Source of the DNA: a virus
Direction: 5' to 3' (one strand)
Virus record (IMG/VR): IMGVR_UViG_3300017605_000425
Span: 1 to 52,661 of that record
DNA length: 52,661 nucleotides
The notes under the pieces are model-generated. The model was not told where the DNA came from. It ran no database searches and saw only the letters and a list, made by a program, of their open reading frames with translations. Of this stretch, positions 4,885-52,052 are shown piece after piece. The position numbers were made by a program, and so were the translations under genes. How positions within the stretch are numbered: position 1 is the stretch's first letter; each line of letters opens with the position of its first letter.

Positions 4885-5133
4885 TTATTTCACCTCATTT
4901 AAAAGATTATCAAGACTGTCTTGACTAACTTTTGCGTCTTCGTCACCTTTACGAAGTCCCATAGAATCGAACCATTTCGTTATATGTCGGCTAGTGGTAC
5001 GTGACCAGAATTTATCCGTAACATATACGTTTTCGCCATCTAGATATGCGACTGGCGTCTTATAACTGAATAAAACTAGTTTGTTTCCAATTTCTACTTC
5101 TGTCATGTTTGATGCCAACGGTTTAAGGTTCAT
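4885..5133 (-). CDS. Conserved phage protein (82 aa; LFSYKTPVAY family)
   Basis: The start at 5133 (MNLKPLASNMTEVEIG) has AGGAG about nine bases upstream. The residues VLFSYKTPVAYLDGENVYV, then TDKFWSRTTSRHITKWFD, match a very common short phage protein (recalled as a DUF8033-type family). The upstream extension to 5274 covers a separate gene. Molecular role unknown. Confidence 0.75.
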   Translation of the reverse strand: MNLKPLASNMTEVEIGNKLVLFSYKTPVAYLDGENVYVTDKFWSRTTSRHITKWFDSMGLRKGDEDAKVSQDSLDNLLNEVK

Positions 5134-5657: not shown

Positions 5658-5825
5658 TTAGTTACCTCTTAAATTTACAACATTATGACCATTTTCTTCT
5701 AAAATGTCTAATTGCTCATTCCATGTCATTTCGTCTATATTAACCAGCGACGAAACATAGGTTTCCAATAAATGTCTAAATTCACCAATTGAAATGCTTT
5801 CGCCGTCGACTATAAATGTTTTCAT
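5658..5825 (-). CDS. Hypothetical protein (55 aa)
   Basis: The start at 5825 (MKTFIVDGESISIGEFRHLL) is chosen because GGAGGTAAATAAT lies directly before it. Acidic, mostly helical. First well-initiated gene after the promoter at 5944-5972. Confidence 0.6.
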   Translation of the reverse strand: MKTFIVDGESISIGEFRHLLETYVSSLVNIDEMTWNEQLDILEENGHNVVNLRGN

Positions 5826-5826
5826 A

Positions 5827-5937
5827 TTATTTACCTCCAAAGTAGTTACCTAAAATTAGGGCCATATAGAACCCTTCTAAAAACAAGGCACTTAAGACCA
5901 GAAGAAGATGCTCTTGTTTGTGTAATCTCTTTTCCAT
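5827..5937 (-). CDS. Membrane peptide (36 aa), possibly leaderless
   Basis: Translation MEKRLHKQEHLLLVLSALFL then EGFYMALILGNYFGGK has one membrane segment. The ATG at 5937 lies seven bases after the -10 box, exactly where transcription should start, and has no ribosome site. Either it is a leaderless gene or untranslated leader for the gene at 5825. The same geometry at two other genes favours translation. Confidence 0.45.
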   Translation of the reverse strand: MEKRLHKQEHLLLVLSALFLEGFYMALILGNYFGGK

Positions 5938-5943
5938 ACCCAT

Positions 5944-5972
5944 CTTATACCCCCGCACACAGATTTTGTCAA
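5944..5972 (-). promoter_or_regulatory. Consensus sigma70 promoter, leftward
   Basis: On the minus strand, a perfect TTGACA (5967-5972), 17-base spacer and TATAAG (5944-5949). The predicted +1 at 5937 coincides with the A of an ATG. Confidence 0.8.
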
Positions 5973-5989
5973 GAGTTATTTTGACTCTT
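5971..5989. promoter_or_regulatory. Operator-like dyad at -35
   Basis: AAGAGT and ACTCTT form 6-bp inverted arms separated by seven bases. The dyad abuts and overlaps the -35 box of the promoter at 5944-5972. A regulator bound here would block polymerase. It also lies over the stop codon of the upstream membrane peptide. Confidence 0.4.
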
Positions 5990-6074
5990 TTTTGTATAGT
6001 TCAATTAATCTAATTAGTGAAATGATTATTTGCATGGTTGCTACAATTCCAAGAAGTAACAAACTATAGAGCAT
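5976..6074 (-). CDS. Single-pass membrane peptide (32 aa)
   Basis: GAGGAAAAT directly precedes ATG 6074. Translation MLYSLLLLGIVATMQIIISL followed by IRLIELYKKESK is one transmembrane helix with a basic tail. Overlaps the end of the preceding gene by 11 bases. Confidence 0.55.
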   Translation of the reverse strand: MLYSLLLLGIVATMQIIISLIRLIELYKKESK

Positions 6075-6285
6075 ATTTTCCTCTTTTTAGTGCCTTATCT
6101 AAGGCTTCTTTAGAAAAAGCTAAGCATTCGTCCGATTCTTGGTCCATACAATTAAAATTAAGATCTAAATTCTTTTGATTACATCTAGAGGCATGAACCG
6201 TCCTCATGCAAATTGGACAATGAGGATAACGGCGATAGTCTTTTCCTTTAATGAGGGTGCAATAATTAACAATTCTTTTTTCCAT
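6064..6285 (-). CDS. Zinc-ribbon protein (73 aa), probably leaderless
   Basis: Contains CPICMRTVHASRC with more Cys later (FNCMDQESDEC), a likely zinc site. The ATG at 6285 is six bases after the -10 box of the promoter at 6291-6319, so the transcript should begin at or next to the start codon. No nearby Shine-Dalgarno site. Function unknown. Confidence 0.6.
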   Translation of the reverse strand: MEKRIVNYCTLIKGKDYRRYPHCPICMRTVHASRCNQKNLDLNFNCMDQESDECLAFSKEALDKALKRGKYAL

Positions 6286-6286
6286 A

Positions 6287-6784
6287 CTAAGATATAACCC
6301 CAGAAGGTTTATTTGTCAAGGCTACATCATTCTTGCCATTCTGGCCAATTGATTGCCATTGAATTAGATATGCTTCGTTATAAACACCCTTACAACATCG
6401 CCCACAAGCAATCTTAGACCGTCTAAACCGATGGATAGTTTTATTACATCCAGGGCATTGGCCTATATAGTTTTTCCTAGGAATAACTGTATTGGCAGAT
6501 GAATAAGTCCGTTCCCCATCCCCACCTAAAGATAGGCACAGAGCTTTCCAGATTCGATTATGACCACTTTTTGTCAGGGCATGAGCTATTTCATGGATAA
6601 TAGTCAAAAGCATATTTTCAAAAGTATTAAGTTCTGCCAAGGGACGGCTTATGCCTATCTGTTTAACTCCATATCGACATTCGCCCTTGCGTTGTTTGCT
6701 ATGATCCCAGACAAAAGAATAGTCTGGACAATGGTACTTGATTAAGTCTTTGGCCGCCATTTCTATTCGTTCTAAGTGTTCCAT
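6287..6784 (-). CDS. SprT-like zinc metalloprotease
   Basis: The 165-residue protein has HEIAHAL (residues 64-70) and a third His at 75, the SprT/Spartan pattern for catalytic zinc. A C-terminal ribbon, CPGC then CGRC (about residues 113-131), matches the SprT zinc ribbon. The family cleaves DNA-bound or DNA-crosslinked proteins in other systems; the phage role is unknown. It is the first gene of the leftward arm and its ATG at 6784 falls seven bases after a -10 box, so it may be leaderless. Confidence 0.85.
   Translation of the reverse strand: MEHLERIEMAAKDLIKYHCPDYSFVWDHSKQRKGECRYGVKQIGISRPLAELNTFENMLLTIIHEIAHALTKSGHNRIWKALCLSLGGDGERTYSSANTVIPRKNYIGQCPGCNKTIHRFRRSKIACGRCCKGVYNEAYLIQWQSIGQNGKNDVALTNKPSGVIS
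6291..6319 (-). promoter_or_regulatory. Sigma70 promoter, leftward
   Basis: Perfect TTGACA (6314-6319), 17-base spacer, TATATC (6291-6296) on the minus strand. It lies inside the 3' end of the SprT-like gene. Predicted +1 is on the start codon of the gene at 6064-6285. Confidence 0.75.
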
Positions 6785-6790
6785 ACTTGG

Positions 6791-6818
6791 AGTATAAGGG
6801 ACTACGGGATTCTGTCAA
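6791..6818 (-). promoter_or_regulatory. Sigma70 promoter at head of leftward arm
   Basis: Perfect TTGACA (6813-6818), 16-base spacer, TATACT (6791-6796) on the minus strand. Predicted +1 at 6784 is the A of the SprT-like start codon. It is the outermost leftward promoter and probably drives early transcription. Confidence 0.8.
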
Positions 6819-6886
6819 CACCTATTTTTGAACTGATTTACATTGAATATCAAGGATTTATAAGATTTTGTAAAAATAGTTTTAGT

Positions 6887-6992: not shown

Positions 6993-7139
6993 CAAAAGAC
7001 TTGATTATCAAAGAAAAGGATTAATTAAGAGATTGCCCTAAAAGATTATATGACAACAAAATCCTAAATCCCTACCCATGATATGAAGGGGCATTGCTCC
7101 TGTCTTTAAAGTAGTAAAAGGCTATTGAAGGCCTGAATA

Positions 7140-7430
7140 TCTAGATTGTATGTCTGAAGGTTCCTGGTTCACCGCTTGCGCTTCAAAACAGGAAAGGGAT
7201 AGACAAGGTTTCATAACAACGCTCAGAAGGTAACGACTGAGGGCAGAAAAGGGACAATCGAAGAGTTTGAACTTCAATCATGACTGAGGACGTTAAAGCT
7301 TCTTCTATTATATAGAAGGGTTTTAGTTTCTTTTGATTGAAGCTACTTTGAAGGGGGCAATAAAGCCCCCAGATAACTTGCTCGCTGGCTTCACGTTGTT
7401 CAGTTTGTCCAGCTTGCTTTAAAAGAAAAG
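7140..7430 (+). ncRNA. Structured region, possible small RNA(s)
   Basis: Successive hairpins: TTCCTG/CAGGAA (7161-7194), CTCAG/CTGAG (7222-7241), CTTCTAT/ATAGAAG (7302-7318) followed by a T-rich run, GGGGGC/GCCCCC (7353-7370) and GCTGG/CCAGC (7384-7413). No good reading frame. The CTTCTAT hairpin plus T-run could end a plus-strand RNA begun at 6963-6992. No known RNA family recognised. Confidence 0.35.
7353..7370. other. GC-rich hairpin
   Basis: GGGGGC-aataaa-GCCCCC, a six-pair all-GC stem in an AT-rich region. There is no T-run on either side, so it is not a standard terminator. Possible RNA stability element or protein site. Confidence 0.5.
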
Positions 7431-7548
7431 AATTTAAGCTCCTGGGTTTTGCCCATACGCTTTAAGTTTAACTATCGTTTAAATTAAATTAAAGTGAGTT
7501 AAATGATAAGGCGACGTTAAACGGAGCAATTTAACGAACAATTAGTAA

Positions 7549-7608
7549 GTGAGTGTTCACTCACATTCTATCTAGCTTAAGCTTTAACTATCGTATTCAA
7601 ATGAATAC
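7549..7608. repeat. Paired 7-2-7 palindromes
   Basis: GTGAGTG-TT-CACTCAC (7549-7564) and GTATTCA-AA-TGAATAC (7593-7608) share the same geometry but not sequence, with starts 44 bp apart, about four helical turns. Candidate operator, origin or terminase-recognition sites. Confidence 0.45.
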
Positions 7609-7703
7609 ATTTAAGTTTAGTTGAGTATCAAGCCTTTCGGCTAGCCTAAGCTATATCTAAAGTAAGAAGTTCAAGTAAACTTTAAGTATTAACATCGGTC
7701 CCA

Positions 7704-7870
7704 CCCAGTATGGGGTGTTCCCTTTGAGGGTTAGGATTTGGATTATAACTAGTACTAATAGAGACACAGTCTCCCAGTAGCAATCAGTATCAACCATTTT
7801 CACCACTATGCTTTATAGTAAACCATCAACTATAAACTATAGATTAGGGTACCCCCAGTAGTACCCAGTA
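7704..7870. repeat. Iteron-like CCCAGTA repeats
   Basis: Four direct copies of CCCAGTA at 7704, 7773, 7854 and 7864; the last two are 10 bp apart and lie within an AGGGTAC/GTACCCT inverted repeat. Directly upstream of the late arm. Origin, packaging or regulator binding is possible. Confidence 0.4.
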
Positions 7871-7966
7871 CCCTCATTCCCACAGACTAAAGAAGCAAAT
7901 TAAGGGTCCTTTTGGCCCTAAAAACTAACGTCCCATAACAAAGTATAAAATAGAGGAGAACAAAGT

Positions 7967-8287
7967 ATGAATCAAGCAATAACAAACGATTTGAATAAAC
8001 AGGTAGAAACCCTGAAAGAGAAGATCTCTGGCCTCCAGAATGTCAGCCGTCTTATCGGTAACGCCCTAAGTATTATCGGGGATACAGACATCAAGGGTGG
8101 ACACGCCCGCGCTGTTGCGGAAGTCCAGGAATGGTTAGGGGGCTTTGATGCCACCGTCAAGTCCCAACTTCAGGCCCTTCAGTCTATGCTGCCTAAGACC
8201 CCCGAAAAAGACATAAAGATTGCTGCTGCCCCAGAAGTCCCAGTGGTTGACTTGATAGCCGATACGGTTGCTGTTGAGGCTAAATAG
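7967..8287 (+). CDS. Hypothetical protein, first rightward gene (106 aa)
   Basis: GAGGAG lies nine bases before the ATG. An N-terminal coiled coil (LNKQVETLKEKISGLQ) is followed by a helical domain and a Val/Pro-rich tail. Start of the block that leads into the terminase genes. Not recognised. Its stop overlaps the next GTG start by one base. Confidence 0.65.
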   Translation: MNQAITNDLNKQVETLKEKISGLQNVSRLIGNALSIIGDTDIKGGHARAVAEVQEWLGGFDATVKSQLQALQSMLPKTPEKDIKIAAAPEVPVVDLIADTVAVEAK

Positions 8288-16320: not shown

Positions 16321-16395
16321 CGTACCTTAGAGAAACGGTATCTTGCCAGCCTCATAAGCTGGAGACAGTTGGTTCGACTCCAACAGGTGCAACCA
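16321..16395 (+). tRNA. tRNA-Met (anticodon CAT), CCA encoded
   Basis: The 75-base sequence folds as a full cloverleaf. It has an acceptor CGTACCT with AGGTGCA, D arm GAGA/TCTT, anticodon stem CCAGC/GCTGG with loop CTCATAA, variable loop AGACA, and T arm GTTGG-TTCGACT-CCAAC, ending ACCA. Position 1 C faces position 72 A, the mismatch typical of bacterial initiator tRNA. The three stacked G:C pairs of initiators are absent from the anticodon stem (one pair is A:T). So initiator-like Met is favoured, but elongator Met or lysidine-type Ile remain possible. It sits in the late transcript before the capsid gene. Confidence 0.85.
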
Positions 16396-51326: not shown

Positions 51327-51541
51327 TCTAGTTCCTCTAAAGTGGGGCAGTAGATAGAACCATCCTCCCATACTTCACAAGGCCATTTAGTATACTTTCC
51401 TCCCATGGCTTGAGCATCTTCTAATGTAAAGTAATAACCAACAGACAAAACAAATTCGTGTGGTAAATTGATTTCACTATCTAAAAGTGGAGGAAATAAG
51501 GCTTTAAAACCAAATTCCCCTGGAAGTTTATTTACCTTCAT
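51323..51541 (-). CDS. Hypothetical protein (72 aa)
   Basis: GAGGAAG precedes ATG 51541. MKVNKLPGEFGFKALFPPLL, then FTLEDAQAMGGKYTKWPCEV. Acidic end. Overlaps both neighbours. Not recognised. Confidence 0.5.
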   Translation of the reverse strand: MKVNKLPGEFGFKALFPPLLDSEINLPHEFVLSVGYYFTLEDAQAMGGKYTKWPCEVWEDGSIYCPTLEELE

Positions 51542-52052
51542 TTCTTCCTCTCTTTCCGGCCTTCTTTTTACCCTCTTTACGTCCCTCTTTTAGTTCTGGA
51601 TGTTCTTTATAAAATCCTTCGATCTCTTCTTTATGTTGGTCTAGCCGTTCTTGAATCAGGGGCTCTATTTCTGTTTGTCCTTTAACTTCTATCCGGGTTT
51701 GAAAGCCAGCCAGATTCCTATGATTAGAAAATTTCTTGGCCCTCTCTCTTTCACAAATTACCTTAAGTTTATCAATGGCACTTTGCAAAGTACGACTTAC
51801 GGTTGATTTATTTAATCCTAAATGTCGGGCCATTCGAGTTACAGTATATCCTTTTAAAGCAAATAATTCCCATATTACTTTTTGTTGGGTTGAAAAGTCT
51901 ACTATTTCAATAGCATTTAAATAAATCTCATACTGATCCTCTTGCTGAGGAGTCAAAAGGGCTTGGGGAAAAAGATTTTCTAAATCGGTTAATAAATCTG
52001 AATTAGTTGTTTTGTTTGTTTTGTCTTTTTTGTCTTCTTTGTTTTCACTCAT
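51528..52052 (-). CDS. Sigma-region-4-like HTH protein
   Basis: 174 residues. The helix-turn-helix (QQKVIWELFALKGYTVTRMA then RHLGLNKSTVSRTLQSAIDK) matches sigma70 region 4 or LuxR-like domains: recognition helix NKSTVSRTLQSA. Both flanks are highly charged (Lys/Asp N-terminus; Lys/Arg/Gly C-terminus). It lacks a region 2, so a regulator or co-sigma role is likelier than a complete sigma factor. Candidate activator for the late arm, which lacks a clear consensus promoter near 7967. Confidence 0.7.
   Translation of the reverse strand: MSENKEDKKDKTNKTTNSDLLTDLENLFPQALLTPQQEDQYEIYLNAIEIVDFSTQQKVIWELFALKGYTVTRMARHLGLNKSTVSRTLQSAIDKLKVICERERAKKFSNHRNLAGFQTRIEVKGQTEIEPLIQERLDQHKEEIEGFYKEHPELKEGRKEGKKKAGKRGRNEGK

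Follow-up and report, generated by a model that had tools for sequence, protein, structure and literature searches.

Organization of the leftward gene block

The window (the whole stretch analysed here, 52,661 bases of a soil-phage record, G+C 38.9%) is divided into two divergent gene blocks. The rightward block, which begins at 7967, contains structural genes, those for terminase and portal among them. The leftward block runs from 6784 through small genes to the left end of the window, and resumes at the right end with genes for a primase-helicase and a DNA polymerase. A close relative, G010, is colinear with the window but opened elsewhere, and it spans the window's ends, which makes it probable that the leftward genes form a single long unit with the promoter P1 (Table 1) at its head. 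From position only, we infer that this unit is expressed early. The roughly 1 kb between the divergent blocks (7000-7960) has no obvious genes and contains inverted repeats such as GTGAGTGAACACTCAC; the contigs of several relatives stop in or near the region that matches it.

The first gene of the leftward block (gene 1) was assigned to the SprT-like metalloproteases on the basis of a match to Pfam PF10263 above the cut-off (35.1 bits, cut-off 25.6) and of an HExxH motif, which reads HEIAH in the window and in the relative L195, and HEISH in G011. The start codon of gene 2 lies one base past the stop codon of gene 1, the two together occupying 6289-6283 (UAGUAUG). The product of gene 2 has no confident Pfam match and no PHROGs match, and neither gene 2 nor ORF 3 has a homolog among the loci searched. 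Behind ORF 3, a gene starting at 5825 is led by a strong Shine-Dalgarno (SD) site (energy -10.6). ORF 3, with a putative 36-aa product, may itself be a leaderless gene of small size, or else an upstream ORF at the 5' terminus of the message for that gene.

Two other leftward genes are listed in Table 1. The small left-arm protein has no Pfam match; its relatives occur in 118 candidate viral stretches, in cyanophages and in Cronobacter phages. The helix-turn-helix protein shows a weak similarity to sigma-70 region 4, under the cut-off, and is a possible phage transcription factor.

Table 1. Promoters, genes and tRNA genes of the window, with the tRNA(CAT) genes of other clade members
Feature	Source	Position	Strand	Remarks
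P1 promoter	window	6791-6818	(-)	TTGACA 6818-6813, N16, TATACT 6796-6791; preceded by AAAAATAGGTG
P2 promoter	window	6291-6319	(-)	TTGACA 6319-6314, N17, TATATC 6296-6291
P3 promoter	window	5944-5972	(-)	TTGACA 5972-5967, N17, TATAAG 5949-5944; GGGGG ahead of the -10 box
Gene 1, SprT-like metalloprotease, 165 aa	window	6287-6784	(-)	no SD site
Gene 2, 73-aa protein	window	6064-6285	(-)	
ORF 3, 36 aa	window	5827-5937	(-)	
Small left-arm protein	window	4888-5133	(-)	
Helix-turn-helix protein	window	51528-52052	(-)	
tRNA(CAT), initiator type	window	16321-16395	(+)	C1xA72 unpaired, A11:U24; lies among the structural genes of the rightward block
tRNA(CAT)	L031	9524-9598		
tRNA(CAT)	L063	12535-12610		
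tRNA(CAT)	L059	2838-2912		
tRNA(CAT)	L027	487-560		
tRNA(CAT)	L037	752-825		
tRNA(CAT)	L029	8093-8163		

Promoter geometry

All three promoters lie exactly where a first-pass annotation had placed them, and its description of each, a perfect TTGACA, a 16-17 base spacer and a TATA box, is correct. They conform to the sigma-70 type (TTGACA, a 16-18 base spacer and a TATAAT-like -10 box), with -35 boxes that match at 6/6 positions in every case, -10 boxes that match at 5/6, 4/6 and 5/6 positions for P1, P2 and P3, and spacers of 16, 17 and 17 bases. A strict promoter scan returns P1 only, because TATATC and TATAAG lack the final T of the -10 box (at -7). To call the three near-identical, as that annotation did, is an overstatement: TTGACA and GTATGGAA are all that they have in common, and otherwise they are dissimilar. 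P2 is located within the 3' end of gene 1.

At each promoter the -10 box is followed, as had been described, after five or six bases by an ATG, which in all three cases lies within GTATGGAA. The gap is six bases at P1 (CCAAGT, to the ATG at 6784, which opens 165 codons), five at P2 (TTAGT, ATG at 6285, 73 codons) and six at P3 (ATGGGT, ATG at 5937, 36 codons). A -10 box ending at -7 and a six-base gap place +1 on the A of the ATG; after a five-base gap this A comes one position early, which is possible, if less usual. With starts predicted in this way, the A is the seventh base past the -10 box at P1 and P3, and the sixth at P2. The view that standard initiation falls on the A in all three thus agrees with the geometry of P1 and P3 and not with that of P2, where initiation at the G of the ATG would cost the message its start codon.

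The pattern TTGACAN{15,19}TATAN{6,10}ATG has three matches in the window, namely P1, P2 and P3, and none elsewhere. In shuffled sequences the mean was 0.04, and 0 of 100 shuffles reached three.

The element AAATAGG-NN lies ahead of TTGACA at 6818-6832 in the window and recurs in the relatives L031, L061, L063 and L024. It is found in both leadered and leaderless promoters of the clade, as well as in many other phages, and may be an upstream promoter element.

Shine-Dalgarno sites and first codons

Most other genes of the window do have SD sites, as the earlier annotation held, with a strong site in 67 of 94. The P1 gene has none: its SD duplex energy is +1.0, whereas the 94 window genes average -6.1. 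The statement that none of the three genes has a good SD site is accurate for P1 but does not hold literally for the P2 gene (-5.4) and the P3 ORF (-9.9), both with a G-run, GGGG(G), that precedes the ATG by 12 bases. These G-runs are upstream of the predicted +1. Since several relatives, including some with leadered promoters, also have a G-run just ahead of the -10 box, the run looks like a promoter element. The G-runs at P2 and P3 might still serve as weak SD sites on RNA that reads through from P1. No SD site falls within the three transcripts as predicted, a statement that hinges on the start points. The codons that follow leaderless-type starts are A-rich (51% vs 37%, p = 7e-5). Weak structure in the first 40 bases was also considered as a mark of these genes and was discarded, as the effect was not significant (p = 0.18).

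Recurrence in related phages

Relatives were gathered via the portal, the terminase and the small left-arm protein, and the heads of their leftward arms were then read. In a scan of 450 kb of this clade, distances of 0-60 bases were recorded between the -10 box of a TTGACA promoter and an ATG opening at least 25 codons. Distance 5 occurred in five cases and distance 6 in six, 11 in total, and any other single distance in no more than three. Shuffles (n=60) gave a mean of 0.2 at distances 5-6 and a maximum of 1. The spacing noted in the window is therefore a recurrent one in its relatives; the 11 cases are in the window (3), G011, G013, G015, G016 (2), L194, L195 and L198. As the ORFs downstream are mostly unrelated, the 5-6 base spacing recurs independently of the gene.

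The SprT-like gene is present in the window, G011 and L195, and the latter two proteins are 44-45% identical to that of the window. All three start at the same aligned methionine, each with an ATG 5 or 6 bases past a promoter-like -10 box, although the promoter in G011 is weak (TTGAAA, AATATT). The ATG of the P1 gene thus lies at a conserved protein start.

Leaderless heads are not general in the clade. In G012, G014, L230 and L259 the same arm begins with an ordinary SD-led leader, and in G014 the same promoter type has AGAAAACAAA at +1 in place of ATG, followed by an SD site. The promoter class of P1-P3 is also found ahead of leadered genes in G014 and G007. The leaderless trait is frequent in the clade but not fixed, and the "consistent selection" proposed in the first-pass annotation is too strong a term in view of the four SD-led arms. 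The heads of G010 and G007 are ambiguous, having a weak -10 or -35 box; G010 has a competing TTGACA upstream, and G007 has GGAGG 12 bases ahead of the ATG. The arm head of G010 contains a TTGACA-spacer stretch almost identical to that of P2, and has no SprT gene. In G011b an ATG at +1 is followed by GGGAGG and an in-frame ATG. Tandem short repeats (GGCGAAGCGCGGGTGT...) occur in the left arm at L022 9560-9759, the end of contig G007.

Beyond the clade, viral contigs were scanned with the pattern AAATAGG-NN-TTGACA-N16/17-TAT. Among the 81 promoter matches listed, distance 6 was found in seven cases, distance 5 in none and distance 7 in one; in L080, one of the seven, a further in-frame ATG with its own SD site follows downstream. 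Distance 6 likewise had seven cases in the 80 loci retrieved with the left-arm protein; near-identical contigs account for three of these, and clade members already included above for two. These figures suggest that leaderless promoters are a minority mode in many phages, and that the clade of the window seems to use them more often than other phages, in samples that were chosen differently.

Searches of viral contigs with the SprT protein alone or with the DNA polymerase found no relatives, nor did alignment of portal and terminase to bacterial genomes, and a nucleotide search of named phages gave no match to the window. Judged by portal and terminase, the nearest named phage is Silvanigrella aquatica phage CP017838, which is only 27-28% identical, too distant to be taken as a pointer to the host, and in which the distance scan found no leaderless site.

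Probable leaderless transcripts and alternative explanations

The geometry of the three sites occurs more often than chance predicts and recurs in relatives, and the SprT start is conserved. These results point to leaderless transcripts from P1, P2 and P3, with a start at or within one base of the A of the ATG, and we consider this prediction probable. The three would act as ordinary sigma-70-type promoters, and the AUG at the 5' end would itself be recognised by the ribosome, without SD pairing. P1 would open the leftward block with the SprT-like protease, and P2 and P3 would act within the block to boost the small ORFs that follow them. Read-through RNA from P1 may be a second template for the translation of these ORFs, with stop-start coupling in the case of gene 2. 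The proposal that these are leaderless genes gains from the 5-6 base peak in the clade, from the shared SprT start and from the six-base peak in other phages, to a different degree for each promoter. It is strongest for P1, where it is likely. For P2 and P3 it is plausible and weaker, in the case of P2 because of the five-base gap and the stop-start arrangement with SprT, and in the case of P3 because the ORF is short and possibly a 5'-terminal upstream ORF. Points that weigh against the prediction are the five-base gap and incomplete -10 box at P2, the G-runs at P2 and P3, the leadered genes behind this promoter class in G014 and G007, the leadered heads of relatives, and, for the P3 ORF, the lack of a homolog in the loci searched.

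In an alternative account, P1 alone gives rise to a leaderless mRNA that functions, coupling to the SprT stop sets the start at P2, and the AUG at P3 belongs to a 5'-terminal upstream ORF that recruits ribosomes to the SD-led gene downstream. The single base between the stop of gene 1 and the start of gene 2, the strong SD site of the gene behind ORF 3, the similar layout in G011b, and the ribosome-binding 5'-uAUGs of Escherichia coli (PMC4965119) all speak for this account, and we hold it to be a serious possibility, though not the one we expect. Coupling alone does not explain the P2 start, since G010 has nearly the same TTGACA-spacer stretch without an upstream SprT gene.

It seems unlikely that transcripts starting elsewhere, or at promoters further upstream, have short or long leaders and that the position of the ATG is incidental. 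There are weak promoter-like sites 30-60 bases upstream of P1, and the G-runs before the ATGs of P2 and P3 could be read in this sense, but the peak at 5-6 bases over unrelated ORFs, the lack of an SD site at P1 and the geometry of lambda cI (see below) argue otherwise. Nor is it credible that strong promoters of an AT-rich genome merely happen to precede an ATG. Words like GTATGGAA are short, and TATAN{6,9}ATGGAA by itself is expected about once per window; the counts for the full pattern (3 vs 0.04) and for the clade (11 vs 0.2) contradict a chance origin.

Comparison with known systems

Leaderless translation is a known but minority way of starting a gene. Leaderless phage genes are already known, and further published cases in phages may have been missed. 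According to one paper, phage transcripts are often leaderless (PMC5312081), and the cI mRNA of lambda, transcribed from PRM, is an established example (PMC4965119). The sequence at cI is TAGATT-TAACGT-ATG, and, as at P1, the -10 box is followed by six bases and the ATG, with no SD site in the transcript and with A-rich first codons. The cI gene encodes the lysogeny repressor and has a regulated promoter, whereas the promoters of the window are near consensus, occur in several copies and head a long leftward block.

In the leaderless genes of Deinococcus-Thermus the -10 box adjoins the ORF (PMC12340547), and the start point lies on or near the start codon, as is predicted for the window. There it is a host-wide habit built on the -10 box, whereas in the window most genes have strong SD sites and TTGACA is perfect in the promoters. 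Some E. coli mRNAs with 5'-terminal AUG upstream ORFs bind ribosomes (PMC4965119). In these, an AUG at the 5' end and an SD-led gene share one mRNA, an arrangement which P3 and G011b fit; P1 differs, since the AUG there opens a conserved protein of 165 aa and is not followed by an SD-led start.

If confirmed, the leftward-block heads would represent a recurrent leaderless design in an uncultured phage clade, as opposed to a single case like lambda cI. Short genes of this kind can be missed or misplaced by gene callers that depend on ribosome sites. The distance from -10 box to ATG provides a simple test for phage collections, with a six-base peak in one limited sample.

An initiator-type tRNA gene

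According to a review (PMC9031893), leaderless translation is strongly boosted by extra fMet-tRNA, and ordinary translation to a mild degree only; the window contains an initiator-type tRNA(CAT) (Table 1). Such tRNAs do not track the leaderless heads: no tRNA(CAT) was found in G010 or G013, and one is present in each of the leadered G012 and G014. Because of this mismatch, and because the gene is located in the structural block, no link to leaderless starts is claimed. That the lineage favours its own leaderless messages at initiation, aided by its own initiator-type tRNA, is very unlikely.

The marks of an initiator tRNA are an unpaired 1-72 position, A11:U24 and three G:C pairs ending the anticodon stem; they were read by eye from the ARAGORN cloverleaf. 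The tRNA of the window has the unpaired C1xA72 and A11:U24 (GAGA/TCTT), and is not classed as a true initiator, as it lacks the three G:C pairs of the anticodon stem (CCAGC/GCTGG). Among 159 other loci (1.37 Mb, a few of them clade relatives) there are five CAT tRNAs, 0/5 with C1. In the clade, C1 is present in the tRNA(CAT) of L059, L063, L031, L027, L037 and L029; in those with a resolved 3' end it is unpaired, opposite A72 or U72. A11:U24 is absent from those of L027 and L037, the three G:C pairs are present in L031 and L027, and the tRNA of L031 has all three marks.
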